64,000 nucleotides of DNA from Alphaproteobacteria bacterium (GTDB lineage: Bacteria; Pseudomonadota; Alphaproteobacteria; JAOXRX01): positions 1-64,000 of the forward strand of contig JAOXRX010000019.1 in the NCBI GenBank assembly GCA_025800285.1. The letters are read 5' to 3'. Below the pieces are notes generated by a model. That model made no database searches, was not told where the DNA came from, and worked only from the letters and a program-made list of their open reading frames with translations. Positions within the stretch are counted from its first letter, which is position 1; the number at the start of each line of letters is the position of its first letter. Below, one piece after another: positions 47,221 through 56,982 of the stretch. The translations under genes and the position numbers were made by a program.

Positions 47221-47463
47221 ATGTCAAAAGATATAATTTTAGAGATCGAAAAAATACTAGATGAAACTATTCGTCCAGCAATGCAAAATGATGGCGGAGA
47301 TGTTACTGTAATTGATTACGATCCTGAAACAGGAACAGTATTCGTTCAGTTAGAGGGTGCTTGTGTTGGTTGTCCAATGTCAAGAATGACTTTAAAAGGC
47401 GGAGTTGAAAGAATTTTAACTGAAAAAATTGAAGAGGTTAAAAAGGTAGAGCAAGTATTGTAA
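47221..47463 (+). CDS. NifU-like (Nfu) iron-sulfur scaffold protein
   Basis: An 80-residue protein that is just the NifU C-terminal domain: IRPAMQNDGGDVTVIDYD and the cluster-binding CVGCPMSRMTLK with its CxxC. It would carry and deliver 4Fe-4S clusters, relevant to nifJ and other Fe-S enzymes. The start follows AGAGAAAGG. Confidence 0.92.
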   Translation: MSKDIILEIEKILDETIRPAMQNDGGDVTVIDYDPETGTVFVQLEGACVGCPMSRMTLKGGVERILTEKIEEVKKVEQVL

Positions 47464-47471
47464 AAAATACC

Positions 47472-47500
47472 TTGACTTTTTATTAGTTCTACTATATAAA
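47472..47500 (+). promoter_or_regulatory. Promoter of rpmE
   Basis: TTGACT (47472-47477) and TATAAA (47495-47500) are 17 bases apart. A 7-bp inverted repeat, GTTCTAC/GTAGAAC (47487-47509), spans the -10. Confidence 0.7.
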
Positions 47501-47540
47501 AGTAGAACGATTAATTATATTAATAAGGAAGAAACTAAAA

Positions 47541-47789
47541 ATGAAAAAAAATATACATCCAGAGTATGGACCAATGAAAGTAACACTATCTACAGGTGAA
47601 GTAGTTGAAATTAACTCTGTGTTGGGCGCTAAGGAAGGTTATGAAATGCATCTAGATATTGATTCTAATAACCATCCCGCTTACACAAAGTCTAAAGATT
47701 TTGTTGTGGTTGGTTCTTCACAAAGAAATAAATTCGAAGGTAGATTCGCAGGAATGTTTGCGGCATCAGCTAAGAAAGAAGAAAAATAA
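47541..47789 (+). CDS. rpmE: 50S ribosomal protein L31
   Basis: An 82-residue ribosomal protein. KKNIHPEYGPMKVTLSTGE, LDIDSNNHPAYT and KFEGRFAGMF fit the alphaproteobacterial L31 type that lacks the zinc Cys residues. Its stop is 2 bases before the aromatic leader peptide ATG, so its transcript runs directly into the attenuator of the DAHP synthase gene. Confidence 0.88.
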   Translation: MKKNIHPEYGPMKVTLSTGEVVEINSVLGAKEGYEMHLDIDSNNHPAYTKSKDFVVVGSSQRNKFEGRFAGMFAASAKKEEK

Positions 47790-47791
47790 TA

Positions 47792-47854
47792 ATGAAACAG
47801 AATTATTTTGCATTTAACTATTTTTTTTGGACAAAGCGATTAAGGTCGGTTTGA
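47792..47854 (+). CDS. Aromatic-residue leader peptide of the DAHP synthase gene
   Basis: A 20-codon ORF encoding MKQNYFAFNYFFWTKRLRSV. Residues 5-13 contain four Phe, two Tyr and one Trp. It starts 2 bases after the rpmE stop, with AGAAAGAAGA upstream as ribosome site and possibly coupled to rpmE translation. It precedes an antiterminator/terminator pair and the first enzyme of aromatic amino-acid synthesis. This matches the known logic of the trp and phe leader peptides in other bacteria. The peptide product is probably not functional. Confidence 0.82.
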   Translation: MKQNYFAFNYFFWTKRLRSV

Positions 47855-47912
47855 GAATTTAGCTATTTGCAAAAATTTTAAGAAAAGACCTTTGAAAAAA
47901 GGTCTTTTTTTT
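47842..47912 (+). promoter_or_regulatory. Attenuator of the DAHP synthase gene
   Basis: The terminator is AAAGACCTT (47884-47892) pairing with AAGGTCTTT (47899-47907), closed by a GAAA tetraloop and followed by T. The competing antiterminator is AAGGTC (47842-47847, inside the leader ORF) pairing with GACCTT (47887-47892), extendable by TTT/AAA across a 2-base bulge. Stalling at the aromatic codons (47804-47830) leaves AAGGTC free; translation to the stop at 47852 covers it. Confidence 0.8.
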
Positions 47913-47934
47913 ATAACATAAGAAAGAGGTAAGT

Positions 47935-49314
47935 ATGGAAAAACAATGGAGTGAGAAGTCTTGGCAAGAAAAAGAAAGAATACAAATGCCAACATATCCA
48001 AACACAGAAGAGTTAAAAGATGTTAAGGCAAAGCTTAGAAAAAGGCCTCCGCTTATTTTTGCTGGTGGAGTTAGAAATCTTAAAAAAGAGCTAGCTGAAG
48101 CAGGTAGGGGAGAAAGATTTGTTATTCAAGGTGGAGATTGTGCGGAGAGCTTTGACTCATTTGATACTCAATCTATTAAAGCAACTTTTGCTCATTTATT
48201 GCAAATGACAGCAATTCTTATGTTTAAAGCAGATAAAAGAGTTTGTAAGATTGGTAGAATGGCTGGTCAATTCGCTAAGCCTAGATCTAGTGATGTTGAA
48301 ACAAGGGATGGTGTTTCTTTACCTTCATATAGAGGTGATATTATCAATGGTTATGATTTTAACGAAGAATCAAGAATACCTGATCCAAAAAGAATGTTAG
48401 AAGCTTATAATCAATCAGCATCTACTTTAAACTTTATTAGATCTCTTGCAGTAGAGGGCTATGCGGATTTGCATCTAGCTTCTAAGTGGCTTTTAGAATC
48501 TGTAAAAAATAGCCCAGCTAAAGCCAAATACCAAGAGCTAGCTTCAGATATTGAGACTATATTAGATTCTTTATCTAATGGTCATGTTATGGTTGATGGT
48601 TCAAAAGTTAGTGTGAAAGAGGCGGATTTTTATGTATCTCATGAAGCTTTATTGTTAGATTATGAAGAGCCAATGGTTAGAATAGATAGTTTAACAGGTG
48701 AAAAAGTAGATACTTCTGGTCATTTTCTATGGATTGGAAATAGAACAAGACAGCCTAATGGTGCTCATGTTGAATTTTTAAAAGGCATTATTAATCCTAT
48801 TGGAATTAAGTGCGGGTCAAGTTTAACTCCTGATGAGTTGAAATCTTTAATTAAGACTATAAATCCAGATAATGAAGAAGGTAAAATTACTCTTATTGCT
48901 AGATTTGGTAAAGATAAAATAAGAGAAGATTTGCCACCACTAATTAATGCGGTTAAAGAAGAAGGTTTAAATGTTACATGGATTTCTGATCCTATGCATG
49001 GAAATGGTAAATCTTTAGAGGATGGGACAAAGACAAGGTTTTTCTCTGATATATTAGAGGAATTAGAGGCTTTCTTTGAAGTTTGTCAAGAAAATGGAGC
49101 TATCCCTGCTGGTATGCATTTAGAGATGACTGGTAAAGAAGTCACAGAATGTATTGGTGGTTCTTGTGATCTTAAAGATTTAAGTGCTAATTATGAAACT
49201 AAAGTTGATCCGAGGCTTAATAATGAGCAGGCATTAGAAATGGCATTTGATGTTGCTGAAATTATAAATAAGAAATCAAATAAGAAGAAAAATATAGCTT
49301 CGTTCACAATATAA
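47935..49314 (+). CDS. 3-deoxy-7-phosphoheptulonate (DAHP) synthase, class II
   Basis: The first step of the shikimate pathway: phosphoenolpyruvate plus erythrose 4-phosphate gives DAHP. 459 residues of the plant/class II type: RFVIQGGDCAESFDSF (metal and substrate site near residue 67), GRMAGQFAKPRS, WIGNRTRQ and WISDPMHGNG. The start follows AAGAGGTAAGT. Its transcription should depend on the aromatic leader peptide attenuator at 47792-47912, giving end-product control through charged tRNAs. A terminator follows. Confidence 0.96.
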   Translation: MEKQWSEKSWQEKERIQMPTYPNTEELKDVKAKLRKRPPLIFAGGVRNLKKELAEAGRGERFVIQGGDCAESFDSFDTQSIKATFAHLLQMTAILMFKADKRVCKIGRMAGQFAKPRSSDVETRDGVSLPSYRGDIINGYDFNEESRIPDPKRMLEAYNQSASTLNFIRSLAVEGYADLHLASKWLLESVKNSPAKAKYQELASDIETILDSLSNGHVMVDGSKVSVKEADFYVSHEALLLDYEEPMVRIDSLTGEKVDTSGHFLWIGNRTRQPNGAHVEFLKGIINPIGIKCGSSLTPDELKSLIKTINPDNEEGKITLIARFGKDKIREDLPPLINAVKEEGLNVTWISDPMHGNGKSLEDGTKTRFFSDILEELEAFFEVCQENGAIPAGMHLEMTGKEVTECIGGSCDLKDLSANYETKVDPRLNNEQALEMAFDVAEIINKKSNKKKNIASFTI

Positions 49315-49317
49315 AAT

Positions 49318-49347
49318 AAAAAAGGAGGTTTTATAACCTCCTTTTTT
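49318..49347. terminator. Bidirectional terminator between DAHP synthase gene and truB
   Basis: AAAAAAGGAGGTT / AACCTCCTTTTTT hairpin between convergent genes; T runs on both strands. Confidence 0.92.
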
Positions 49348-50206
49348 ATAAATTAAATACTTTTACTGCTCTTATTTTTTCGTCTCCAACTTCTTTCACA
49401 AAAGCTATAGGGGTTTTGTTATTTATAGCTAATGCAATGTTTTGAATTTTTTCTAACTTTGTTATACATAAGCCATTTTTTATTTTTTTAGCTTCTTCAT
49501 TGTTTAGCTCTAATGTGTATAAATCTTTAAGAGCTTCCGAAATTGATATTACTTTTTTATTTGCATTAGTGAAATCTTCAGGCATTATAGATTGCTCTAA
49601 ATTGAAGTCTCCTGACTGAGTTCTCTTTATTGATGTGCAATGTCCATAACAATTTAAATCAACTCCTAAGTCTCTAGCTAAAGACCTCATATAAGTTCCT
49701 TTGCTGCAAAACACTCTTATAGAACTTTCTTCTTCATTGTGATCCAATATTTCTATAGAAAATATTTCTACATCTTTTGCTCTTATTTTTACCTCTTTTC
49801 CTTGTCTTGCTAAATCGTAAGCTCTTTGTCCATTGATTTTGCAAGCAGAAAAGTTAGGAGGTGTTTGTTTTATTTTTCCTTGATAAGTATTTATAGCTTC
49901 TTTCAATTCTTGAAGTTTAGGGCGATTATCTGATGTTTTTATAACTTCACCTTCTGTGTCATCAGTAGATGTTTGTTCTCCCCATTTTATTTTTATTTCA
50001 TATGTTTTTTTGTTATTAGTTAGGTAGGGTATCGCTTTGGTTGCTTCTCCTAATGCTACTGGCAAGACACCTTCTGCTAAAGGATCTAGTGTGCCCAAGT
50101 GTCCTATTTTTTGTTTTCCTATAGCTCTTTTTAATATGCCTAGAGCTTGATTTGATGTTATCCCTAAAGGCTTATATATAACTAAAAATCCATTTATCTT
50201 TTCCAT
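49346..50206 (-). CDS. truB: tRNA pseudouridine(55) synthase TruB
   Basis: It makes pseudouridine 55 in the T loop of tRNA. 286 residues. The catalytic Asp is D41 in HLGTLDPLAEGVLPVALGEATK. YEIKIKWGEQTSTDDTEGEV and the CSKGTYMRSLARDLG motif are also typical. A PUA-like C-terminal region is short. It ends within the shared terminator. Confidence 0.96.
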   Translation of the reverse strand: MEKINGFLVIYKPLGITSNQALGILKRAIGKQKIGHLGTLDPLAEGVLPVALGEATKAIPYLTNNKKTYEIKIKWGEQTSTDDTEGEVIKTSDNRPKLQELKEAINTYQGKIKQTPPNFSACKINGQRAYDLARQGKEVKIRAKDVEIFSIEILDHNEEESSIRVFCSKGTYMRSLARDLGVDLNCYGHCTSIKRTQSGDFNLEQSIMPEDFTNANKKVISISEALKDLYTLELNNEEAKKIKNGLCITKLEKIQNIALAINNKTPIAFVKEVGDEKIRAVKVFNL

Positions 50207-50282: not shown

Positions 50283-50750
50283 TTAATTTTCTGAAAATCT
50301 TTTGCCTCTTCTTTCTTTTATTTTATTCATTTTATTCTTTTGTCTATTATCTCTTCTTTCCATTCTTTTTTCTTTTTTCTGAGTTTTTCTATCTCTTTTT
50401 CTCTCTTTCATCTCTTCTTTTCGAGATTTTCTTTGTTCCATCATCTCTTCTTTATAGCTTTTTCGCTTTTCTTTCATGTCTTGTTGAAATTCTTTTCGTT
50501 CTTGCATCATATCTTGTTGAAATTCTTTTCGTTCTTGCATCATATCTTGCTTAAAATCTTTTCTGCTTTCTTTCATGTCTGAACGATAGCTCTTTCTTTC
50601 AGATTTCATGTCTGAACGGTAGTCTTTTCTTTCTTGTCTATATGATGGTCGACTGTTTTTAGCAGGTATTTTATTTTGAGCTATAGCTGTTGAAACGGAT
50701 GTTGATAGGCTTAATACTGCTATCATAGTAATAATTTTATTTATTTTCAT
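50283..50750 (-). CDS. Secreted, highly charged repetitive helical protein
   Basis: 155 residues with a signal peptide (MKINKIITMIAVLSLSTSVSTAIA). Almost the whole mature part is a long run of Lys, Arg, Glu, Asp, Gln and Met, strongly predicted as one extended helix. An 11-residue unit (MMQERKEFQQD) is repeated exactly, and the underlying 33-base DNA unit is repeated in tandem. The composition recalls periplasmic Spy/CpxP-like or Lys/Arg-rich envelope proteins, but no family motif is seen. Function unknown. Confidence 0.72.
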   Translation of the reverse strand: MKINKIITMIAVLSLSTSVSTAIAQNKIPAKNSRPSYRQERKDYRSDMKSERKSYRSDMKESRKDFKQDMMQERKEFQQDMMQERKEFQQDMKEKRKSYKEEMMEQRKSRKEEMKERKRDRKTQKKEKRMERRDNRQKNKMNKIKERRGKRFSEN

Positions 50751-53994: not shown

Positions 53995-56982
53995 ATGAAA
54001 TTTAAAGCAGATAAATTAAAAAATCTTATAGACAATTACGATGTAGTATCTTTTGATATATTTGATACTCTTTTGTTGAGGCCTTATGCTAAGCCTGTAG
54101 ATTTGTTTAGCCATTTAGAGCAACTAGAGAATGTTGAAGGCTTCGCTGAAGAGAGAGTTAATGCCGAAAGAAGAACAAGAAGAATTATAAAAGGGAATAA
54201 TCCTAAATATGAAGACATCACACTTGATGAAATATATGAGGAAATAAATCCGAAGTTTAAATCTCTAAAGAAAAAAGAACTAGATTTAGAGGGTAAAGTA
54301 TTATTCCAAAATTCTGAAATATATAATGTTTATAAATATGCTCTAAGGAAGAAAAAGAAAGTCATATTTGTTTCAGATATGTATTTACCAGCTACTTTTC
54401 TAAAGAAAGTTGTAGAAAAAAATGGATATGATAAGTATGAGAAATTATATGTATCTTCAGAATATAGAAAAGGAAAAGGGACAGGTAATCTTTACAAAGA
54501 AGTATTAAAAGATTTATCTCTAAAAGCAAAGAATGTAGTTCATATAGGGGATAACCATCATTCTGATTTTGTTCAGGCAAATAATATAGGTATAAAGGGG
54601 GTTCACTACCCTAAAGTGTTAGATAGGTTTATAAAATTATCTAATAATAATAAAAAAATAGAAGAATTTATTCAAAGACATAAATCTGTTGGTGGTTCAG
54701 CTTTAATTATGCAGATGGCAATAGATTTTGTTTTAGAAGGTAAAACATGGGAAAAAGATTATTGGTATTTAATGGGGAAATATTACGGAGGTTCTTTAGC
54801 TTACACATATTGTGATTATATTAGTGAAATAGTAAGTAATAACAATTTAAAAGATGTTGTGTTCGTAGCAAGAGATGGTTATTCTTTAGAAAAAGTTTTT
54901 AATATCTTAATGCCTAAAGTTAAGACTCATTATGTGTATGCTCCTAGAATTATGTCAGAAATGACATCATTTGCATTCCATAAAGATGATTCTATTTTAA
55001 AGAGAGCTATGAGAAGAAAAGCTTCAGATATTTTAAATAAAGATGTTGTTACAGATGAAGAGCTAGAGAAGTTTTCTGCAAAGAAATTTAAACAAATGAA
55101 AAAATATATTTCTTCATTTAAGTTAGATAAAAAATTTGCAATGGTTGATACTATAACTGGAAAGTTTTCTAGTCAATCTTTATTGGAGAAACTTGATGAA
55201 AACAAAGATATTTTGGGTATATATTGGCATATTTTACCTGAAGCTAAAGTGATGAGCAAAGATTTTAAATGTGATAACCTTATAGAAGAGAAATTTAATA
55301 GTATTAAATATTGGACTATTTTTGAGTTTTTCATAGGAGCCCCTGAACGACCTATAAAAGATTTGGATGAGAATAATAAACCAGTATATATAGATATCAA
55401 TAAACATGAAGAGAAAAGGTTGTCTGTATATGGTGATATTACACAAGGTATCATTGATTTAACAAAAGAGTTGACAAGTAGTTTGCAAACAAAAAAGCTA
55501 TTTTTCTCTATTGAAGATGTAGTTTGTTTAATAGACTGTCTATGCTATTGTGCTCCAACAAATTTAGATAAGAAAAACTTCTCTGGAATTTATTTTGCTC
55601 CTTTGTCAGATCATAAACACTATGAGCCTTTAATGATATCCAATAAAGGTGATGTAGCGAATAAGTATATAAGACCACCTTGGAATAACCTAAAAGAAAA
55701 TAGCTTAGAAATAACTAAAGATATTTATGGTTATAATATAAAAGCAGGTATTCCTTATGTTTTAGAGTATAAAAGAGTTAAAAAATATGATTCTAATAAA
55801 TGGGGAATATATTTATTCGGTGTTCAATTATTAAAAAAGAAAAGAACAGCAACTCGTAAGAAAAATTGGATTTTATATATAAAAGTGAAAGATGGGTATA
55901 AAACTTTTAAGCCTAAAAACAAAGATAAAAAATCATTTTTACATGTTAAGTTTTATAAAAAAGAGATTATAGGTGAAGTAATAAGAAAAAGATTTATTAT
56001 TATTTCTTTCAGAAATCTGAAAACTACGGATATAGCTTTTAAATTTACGGTTGCAAAGATTATATTTAATAAAAATCAAGATAAGAGTCTAAAAGAATTT
56101 TATTTGTTTGGAATTAAGGTTCTTTCAAAATTAAAAACTTTGGAAGAACATAAGTTATCTCTATTTAATATTGTGTTATTTAATAAAGAGGCTTTAATTA
56201 AAGAAAATATAAAGAGCTCATTTTCTCCTGTTGTTAATAAAGATAATAAGTATGAGGATATTTTGAAAGAAGCAGAGCATATTTCTAGAGAGATGACTCC
56301 CGCTGAAAAAGCAAAAACATCAAAACTTAAAAACAAGTATAAAGGTAAGAAATGTATAATTATAGGAGGGGCTCCTTCTATTAATGATTTAGATTTAAGT
56401 AAATTAAATAATAGTGATTATATTTTGTTTAGTGCTAATAGGGGATACAAATTAAAAGAAAAGGGTTTGAATAAAACTCATTATCACTTTTTGACTGATA
56501 GTAAATTTATTCCTGAGTTTGAATCTGAAATTGATAAGGATTTTGCGGACTCGTTTATTATTAATACAGATTGTGTTAAATATTTTAAATTTAAAAAAGA
56601 TTATAGTACTGTTTCGTTTTTCCATACTCCACAAAAACTTAATAGGTTTTGTGTTAGTGATGATATGACAAAGTATTGTCATTCTGGCTTTACAGTGGTT
56701 TCTATAATGCTTATGATGGCTAGATACATGGGTATTAAAGAAATATATTTAATAGGTGTTGATTTGTCTTTTAATAAAGATAACAATCATTTCTATAAAG
56801 ATTCTAAAGGAGAACAGGGTAGGTGTCTTAACAATTCTATAAAGGATAAAGAAGGCATGTTTAATTGGATAAAAAAAGCAAATAAAGCTTTTACGGAAGA
56901 AGGAATTAAGTTAAGGAATGCTTCTCCTAACCCAAAATCTTTAGATTTCATGAAGAAGATTAAGTATAGTAAGTTGTTTTAA
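53995..56982 (+). CDS. Large HAD-domain / DUF115-domain fusion, surface polysaccharide associated
   Basis: A 995-residue multidomain protein. The N terminus (about 1-220) is a HAD-like hydrolase: SFDIFDTLLLRPYAKPVDLF, FVSDMYLP and HIGDNHHSDFVQA. The centre (about 230-700) is unassigned but contains IYLFGVQLLKKKR and FYLFGIKVLSK, short motifs often seen at the ends of glycan-assembly proteins. The C terminus (about 780-995) is a DUF115 domain (KKCIIIGGAPSINDLDL... GFTVVSIMLMMARYMGIKEIYLIGVDLSF), related to enzymes acting on nucleotide-sugar or surface-glycan chemistry. It starts 12 bases after the ABC gene. The reaction is unknown. Confidence 0.8.
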   Translation: MKFKADKLKNLIDNYDVVSFDIFDTLLLRPYAKPVDLFSHLEQLENVEGFAEERVNAERRTRRIIKGNNPKYEDITLDEIYEEINPKFKSLKKKELDLEGKVLFQNSEIYNVYKYALRKKKKVIFVSDMYLPATFLKKVVEKNGYDKYEKLYVSSEYRKGKGTGNLYKEVLKDLSLKAKNVVHIGDNHHSDFVQANNIGIKGVHYPKVLDRFIKLSNNNKKIEEFIQRHKSVGGSALIMQMAIDFVLEGKTWEKDYWYLMGKYYGGSLAYTYCDYISEIVSNNNLKDVVFVARDGYSLEKVFNILMPKVKTHYVYAPRIMSEMTSFAFHKDDSILKRAMRRKASDILNKDVVTDEELEKFSAKKFKQMKKYISSFKLDKKFAMVDTITGKFSSQSLLEKLDENKDILGIYWHILPEAKVMSKDFKCDNLIEEKFNSIKYWTIFEFFIGAPERPIKDLDENNKPVYIDINKHEEKRLSVYGDITQGIIDLTKELTSSLQTKKLFFSIEDVVCLIDCLCYCAPTNLDKKNFSGIYFAPLSDHKHYEPLMISNKGDVANKYIRPPWNNLKENSLEITKDIYGYNIKAGIPYVLEYKRVKKYDSNKWGIYLFGVQLLKKKRTATRKKNWILYIKVKDGYKTFKPKNKDKKSFLHVKFYKKEIIGEVIRKRFIIISFRNLKTTDIAFKFTVAKIIFNKNQDKSLKEFYLFGIKVLSKLKTLEEHKLSLFNIVLFNKEALIKENIKSSFSPVVNKDNKYEDILKEAEHISREMTPAEKAKTSKLKNKYKGKKCIIIGGAPSINDLDLSKLNNSDYILFSANRGYKLKEKGLNKTHYHFLTDSKFIPEFESEIDKDFADSFIINTDCVKYFKFKKDYSTVSFFHTPQKLNRFCVSDDMTKYCHSGFTVVSIMLMMARYMGIKEIYLIGVDLSFNKDNNHFYKDSKGEQGRCLNNSIKDKEGMFNWIKKANKAFTEEGIKLRNASPNPKSLDFMKKIKYSKLF

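Follow-up and report, generated by a model that had tools for sequence, protein, structure and literature searches.

A very small open reading frame (ORF) and an RNA stop signal, located between rpmE and the gene for a class II DAHP synthase, most likely enable an uncultured alphaproteobacterium to boost the first enzyme of the aromatic pathway when aromatic amino acids are short. The locus combines a leader ORF rich in Phe, Tyr and Trp codons, two mutually exclusive RNA folds whose geometry matches the positions of these codons, and a gene context that fits the encoded amino acids. We consider it likely that these elements constitute a ribosome-mediated transcription attenuator fed by the rpmE promoter, with phenylalanine as the probable main signal.

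Organization of the rpmE-DAHP synthase locus

The window (the whole stretch of DNA that was analyzed, 64,000 nucleotides) contains, in this order, nfu (47221-47463), rpmE, the leader ORF, a terminator and the class II DAHP synthase gene, followed by truB on the opposite strand. The features of the locus, apart from the RNA folds described below, are these:

47472..47500, + strand: promoter-like site before rpmE, TTGACT, 17 bases, TATAAA (read from the sequence; 5 of 6 bases match in each hexamer)
47541..47789, + strand: rpmE, cysteine-free ribosomal protein L31 (TIGR00105, E 1.5e-16, over the cut-off)
47792..47854, + strand: leader peptide ORF of 20 codons, MKQNYFAFNYFFWTKRLRSV (sequence, rank among short ORFs, chance estimate)
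47804..47830, + strand: control codons 5-13, Tyr Phe Ala Phe Asn Tyr Phe Phe Trp (in silico stall calculation)
47926..47929, + strand: GAGG, ribosome-binding site of the DAHP synthase gene, with the ATG 5 bases on (sequence)
47935..49314, + strand: class II DAHP synthase, 459 aa (TIGR01358, E 7.6e-175, 581.7 bits, slightly below the curated cut-off of 614.7 bits)
49316..49349, both strands: hairpin where the DAHP synthase and truB genes converge, with T runs on both strands, a probable two-way terminator (motif scan)

The stop codon of rpmE, TAA, is separated by only two bases from the leader ATG at 47792 (TAATAATG), and no ribosome-binding site can clearly be assigned to the leader ORF. The end of rpmE at 47789, the ORF, the AAGGTC and GACCTT segments, the GAAA loop and the T run all lie where the original prediction had placed them.

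Judging from its bases, the site at 47472..47500 is the probable source of the leader-bearing transcript; our consensus promoter scan, which accepts only second hexamers ending in T, omits it. Near the start of the DAHP synthase gene, a single promoter-like match was found (TTGAAA-16-TAACAT, 47892-47919), which agrees with the consensus at 9 of 12 positions and overlaps the terminator; 6 matches of this quality were found, against 11.3 expected from shuffled sequences. Since the 23 bases that separate the end of the terminator from the start of the DAHP synthase gene are too few for a good promoter specific to this gene, its expression probably relies on read-through from rpmE.

Several other observations were made in the window. 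The L31 protein encoded at 47541-47789 is of the zinc-free type, without cysteine, and is the sole L31 match found in the genome. A perfect 8-base inverted repeat (GTTCTACT-N7-AGTAGAAC, 47486-47508) extends across the -10 region of the rpmE promoter-like site and is possibly an operator, as far as its sequence suggests; no second copy with up to 2 mismatches was detected in 583 kb of the genome. A gene at 50283-50750 on the minus strand encodes a 155-aa protein with a signal-like start, composed almost entirely of QERKEFQQDM / MKEKRKSYKEEM repeats, for which we found no Pfam match. At 53995-56982 on the plus strand, a gene adjoining those of a glycosyltransferase and an ABC transporter encodes a 995-aa protein with an MptE-like domain (PF01973) near the C-terminus and, at the start, a weak match to HAD hydrolases.

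An aromatic-rich leader ORF

The leader peptide carries Phe at positions 6, 8, 11 and 12, Tyr at positions 5 and 10, and Trp at position 13, so that seven of the nine codons from 5 to 13 specify aromatic residues, a density of control codons typical of ribosome-mediated attenuators. Among the 584 ORFs of 9-40 aa that start with ATG on either strand of the window, it ranks first in aromatic density, with 7 aromatics per 9 codons compared to 6 for the runner-up. The expectation by chance was estimated with first-order Markov sequences of the length of the rpmE-DAHP synthase gap: an ORF with at least seven aromatics in nine codons occurred in 4 of 20,000 random gaps generated with the composition of the window and in 42 of 20,000 generated with that of the gap itself, and an ORF of this density that also contained Phe, Tyr and Trp together occurred in 2 or 4 per 20,000, respectively. 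Similarly, 116 pairs of a short ORF and a terminator were identified in the 583 kb of the genome that we scanned (53% of 1.095 Mb), and the leader described here is the only one that exceeds 5 aromatics in 9 codons. Another leader candidate of the same genome (MELMLLLIIVVIPMA, locus L233) was discarded, the gene downstream of it not being a branched-chain gene.

Mutually exclusive RNA folds

Three RNA folds are predicted in the leader region:

47799..47879, + strand: protector (1:2) fold of the untranslated leader, which sequesters the antiterminator arm (minimum-energy fold)
47842..47892, + strand: antiterminator, with the outer stem AAGGTC 47842-47847/GACCTT 47887-47892 and the inner stem 47850-47856/47876-47882 (-13.0 kcal/mol)
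47880..47912, + strand: intrinsic terminator, with a 14-bp stem 47880-47893/47898-47911, GAAA loop 47894-47897 and U run to 47912 (-15.3 kcal/mol, z -4.8)

An intrinsic terminator thus stands between the leader ORF and the structural gene, as in an attenuator. The RNA comprising the leader and the terminator folds with a z score of -3.9, a stability that no shuffled sequence equaled, and the antiterminator segment alone gives z -2.7 to -2.8, with 1-2 of 200 shuffles equally good. According to the calculations, the antiterminator is the fold that the RNA adopts as long as the 3' arm of the terminator has not been made.

We then calculated the folding of the RNA with a ribosome masking it up to 11-13 bases beyond the first base of the A-site codon, and the switch proved stable over these three footprints. 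A ribosome at codon 1 leaves the antiterminator with a probability of 0.09 only, which is the in silico behavior of a protector. When the ribosome stalls at any of codons 5-13, the antiterminator forms with a probability of 0.85-0.94; this value falls to 0.46-0.79 at codon 14 and does not exceed 0.03 at codon 15 and all later positions up to the stop. Codon 13, the last aromatic one, is also, in silico, the last stall position that keeps the antiterminator arm fully free, and with the abrupt drop right after it the aromatic block stops at the very point beyond which stalling is no longer productive. The two folds are mutually exclusive, and in these calculations a ribosome at the end of the ORF masks the 5' arm of the antiterminator, whereas one on the control codons leaves it exposed. 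The leader-peptide attenuator that had been predicted ahead of the DAHP synthase gene is supported by this stall geometry and by the recurrence of mixed leaders in Order X (see below).

At equilibrium, the terminator prevails (probability 0.99) even when the antiterminator arm is free. Since the terminator is favored once it is complete, the decision of the switch must be kinetic, and we infer that the antiterminator would have to be captured during transcription, as in known attenuators.

Our working model is therefore as follows. RNA polymerase would start upstream of rpmE and continue into the leader, the translation of which would probably be aided by the ribosomes that end rpmE two bases before. 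With charged Phe-tRNA (and likewise Tyr- and Trp-tRNA) available, the ribosome would reach codons 15-21 and mask AAGGTC, the GAAA-loop terminator would fold, and transcription would end ahead of the DAHP synthase gene. A ribosome stalled on an aromatic codon between 5 and 13 would instead leave AAGGTC free to capture GACCTT before the terminator is finished, and polymerase would read through in a manner dependent on amino acid supply. Phe is probably the main signal, since it accounts for four of the seven aromatic codons and is the sole end product of the pathway that the genome supports.

Aromatic biosynthesis in the window genome

The window genome (G000), rated 97% complete, contains a prephenate dehydratase gene (PF00800, E 1.7e-53), located near an aminotransferase gene that, from its sequence, resembles ilvE (L195). 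In this 97%-complete genome, we found no match to the TrpE/PabB chorismate-binding family, to IGPS, to the TyrA family or to phenylalanine hydroxylase. The chorismate-binding, IGPS and TyrA families were all detected in each of the 14 control genomes, and phenylalanine hydroxylase in just one of them, so that the absence of the latter is ordinary. With three separate families absent, it is likely that the Trp and Tyr branches have been lost, even if assembly gaps affecting the genes one by one are possible, and G000 has apparently lost the synthesis of Trp, Tyr and p-aminobenzoate from chorismate. Phe would then be the only aromatic product supported by its gene content.

The comparison of the control codons with the products of the pathway is thus uneven: the Phe codons are matched by prephenate dehydratase, and the Tyr and Trp codons correspond to branches that were not found in G000. 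As G000 is apparently incapable of Trp and Tyr synthesis, it is not obvious which product these codons would report on; they may be relics or sensors of imported amino acids. The pooled control of three products, as originally put forward, loses ground: with the Trp and Tyr branches likely gone, it does not suit the organism as stated, and an attenuator that senses mainly Phe is a better fit. That this organism has adopted the sensing of Phe-, Tyr- and Trp-tRNA as a pooled control is doubtful. The mismatch between the amino acids sensed and the capacity of the genome raises the question of what role the Tyr and Trp codons have once the synthesis of Tyr and Trp has disappeared.

Mixed-aromatic leaders in relatives

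In another order of the class, called Order X here (families f115 and f173), leader ORFs with endings of the FYWFR type just before the stop codon (for example GGAFAYGWFYWFR, GGVYGFYFAYWFR and GGFVFFYWFR) are present upstream of 17 of the 29 class II DAHP synthase genes, and Phe, Tyr and Trp all occur within the last 16 residues in 14 of these 17 leaders. The conserved leader loci of Order X lie within L112-L140 (e.g., L114, L117, L125, L127, L136 and L140). The same aromatic-leader filter applied to 138 other loci retained two candidates from other families, neither of them convincing and both possibly due to chance: the ORF upstream in L077 (LFFFWFFSGTF) has no Tyr, and that in L092 (ending in LFEGFDWFFYIIFAIMQ) is separated from the DAHP synthase gene by a long gap.

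The Order X leaders may differ from the window leader in their mode of action. A nearly invariant hairpin spans their stop codon (TGGTTCCGGTAA..CCGGAAC). A second one, variable in sequence and not followed by a T run, precedes the DAHP synthase gene. RNAalifold revealed no compensatory change in the stop-codon hairpin, which is almost invariant, and a search of six Order X loci with Rfam at the gathering threshold returned only a tRNA. The TGGTTCCGGTAA..CCGGAA pattern over a leader stop has no match in G000, where the leader ends in RLRSV. Across the class, the TGG-TTC-CGG hairpin pattern was found upstream of a DAHP synthase gene in G383 only; a look-alike in L145 was dismissed, as no DAHP synthase gene is nearby.

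In the tree of DAHP synthases, the enzyme of the window was not joined with those of Order X, with very low support near the window branch, and the enzymes of class members group with those of named Rhodobacteraceae, which makes Alphaproteobacteria the most likely identity of the class. Most simply, leaders of mixed aromatic composition ahead of class II DAHP synthase genes would have arisen, or been kept, at least twice. No rpmE gene was seen adjoining a DAHP synthase gene in the class, among the matches listed by genome coordinates, nor beside DAHP synthase when whole loci were inspected on both strands with 1.5-kb flanks. The view that the coupling to rpmE is unusual is consistent with these searches, since no other genome that we looked at has this linkage among the matches listed, and the linkage is probably lineage-specific.

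A broader scenario can be formulated, which we rate as rather unlikely: mixed Phe/Tyr/Trp leaders would be a recurrent, independently evolved alphaproteobacterial device that controls the first enzyme of the common pathway according to the scarcest charged tRNA, with repression only if all three are plentiful. Here, the sensor would have outlived the Trp and Tyr branches, so that a shortage of imported aromatics would also raise Phe synthesis, or read-through would tie the supply of DAHP synthase to the transcription of a ribosomal protein gene. The 17 Order X genomes provide conserved examples on which the idea of a mixed-aromatic leader is testable.

Alternative explanations

A first alternative is a narrower form of the attenuator reading rather than one that excludes it: the attenuator would respond to Phe only, through its four Phe codons, and those for Tyr and Trp would be relics or incidental in a reduced genome that has ceased to make these two amino acids. 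We give it slightly less than an even chance. It accords with a 97%-complete genome in which just the Phe branch was found, prephenate dehydratase being present and TrpE/PabB, IGPS, TyrA and Phe hydroxylase not found, and with the aroR leader of Corynebacterium glutamicum, which contains Phe-Tyr-Phe yet is insensitive to Tyr, responding to Phe (PMC11802643). It explains less readily that the Tyr and Trp codons are placed where stalling would, in silico, antiterminate equally well, that all three residues are retained in 14 of the 17 Order X leaders, and that AT-richness by itself would enrich a sequence in TTT and TAT, though not in TGG.

Phe and Tyr codons are frequent at 30% G+C and a promoter-like match overlaps the terminator, and one could thus imagine an ordinary terminator of the nfu-rpmE region, accompanied by an ORF and an AAGGTC/GACCTT pairing that arose fortuitously in an AT-rich sequence, and a DAHP synthase gene transcribed from its own promoter. 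We regard this as improbable: such ORFs appear in about 0.02-0.2% of comparable random gaps, the ORF precedes a gene of the matching pathway with a competing stem at the right place, and promoter matches as good as this one are no commoner than in shuffled sequences. Finally, the tight coupling of rpmE and the leader at TAATAATG might point to translational coupling or to a stalled peptide that alters the access to the ribosome-binding site of the DAHP synthase gene instead of termination, and the second hairpin of Order X, devoid of a T run, implies that some leaders need not use intrinsic termination. The U run of the window hairpin is nonetheless perfect, and the GAGG at 47926-47929 lies outside every predicted stem, which leaves this last explanation with a very slim chance. 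A transcription attenuator that responds to aromatic shortage remains our preferred reading.

Comparison with known attenuators

Attenuators of DAHP synthase genes are already known. In C. glutamicum, aroF encodes a class I DAHP synthase. The Phe-Tyr-Phe-containing leader aroR attenuates aroF, with a response to Phe and none to Tyr (PMC11802643; PMC4046766). As in the window, a multi-aromatic leader precedes a DAHP synthase gene, and aroR acts by ribosome stalling, as proposed here for the window leader; aroR differs in belonging to an Actinobacterium and in that neither a Trp codon nor an upstream rpmE has been reported for it. The statement that known leaders mostly sense one aromatic amino acid has to be tempered, a multi-aromatic leader of a DAHP synthase gene having been described already. 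A second case is the uORFC-13-1 motif of Acholeplasma, located upstream of aroF and followed by a terminator (PMC8632094). It shares with the window leader a short ORF with a run of Phe codons, an intrinsic terminator directly after it and a DAHP synthase gene. The motif comes from another phylum, is noted for at least one Phe codon, and includes a promoter and a ribosome-binding site, whereas the window leader stands behind rpmE and has neither of its own.

No Rfam family matched at the gathering threshold across the window. Positions 1-125 of the Phe_leader model (RF01859) align with 47791-47912 at 22.4 bits (E 0.23), against a gathering threshold of 55 bits, and the region does not qualify as a member of this family. 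It resembles these pheA/pheL-type leaders by its Phe-rich ORF and its terminator, and is distinguished from them by another downstream gene and by additional Tyr and Trp codons. The trpL/peTrpL leader of Sinorhizobium has a run of Trp and an Arg ending and, unlike the window leader, is specific for Trp and located before trpE. What it shares with the window leader is that it is a leader peptide of Alphaproteobacteria whose control codons are aromatic (PMC7298713). Putative attenuators have also been listed before aroF-tyrA in Vibrio (PMC1173090).

In the open-licence papers that we searched, we found neither leader control of a class II DAHP synthase nor a leader with Phe, Tyr and Trp codons. 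The Order X leaders (L112-L140) are like the window leader in combining codons for all three aromatic residues and in preceding a gene of the same enzyme family, and differ from it in that the aromatic block ends at the stop codon, a hairpin lies over the stop, and both the T run and rpmE are missing.

The leaders of ilvGMEDA and of the thr operon are multivalent, with codons for several amino acids, and govern shared steps. Both operons of E. coli are named in PMC1183508. Their signals are the branched-chain amino acids and threonine, not the aromatic ones, and a leader on which ribosomes stall for want of any of three amino acids, ahead of a branch-point enzyme, would, if true, be the aromatic counterpart of these multi-residue leaders. 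The type of attenuator proposed here is well known; what is unusual is its combination of mixed aromatic codons and a position behind a ribosomal protein gene.
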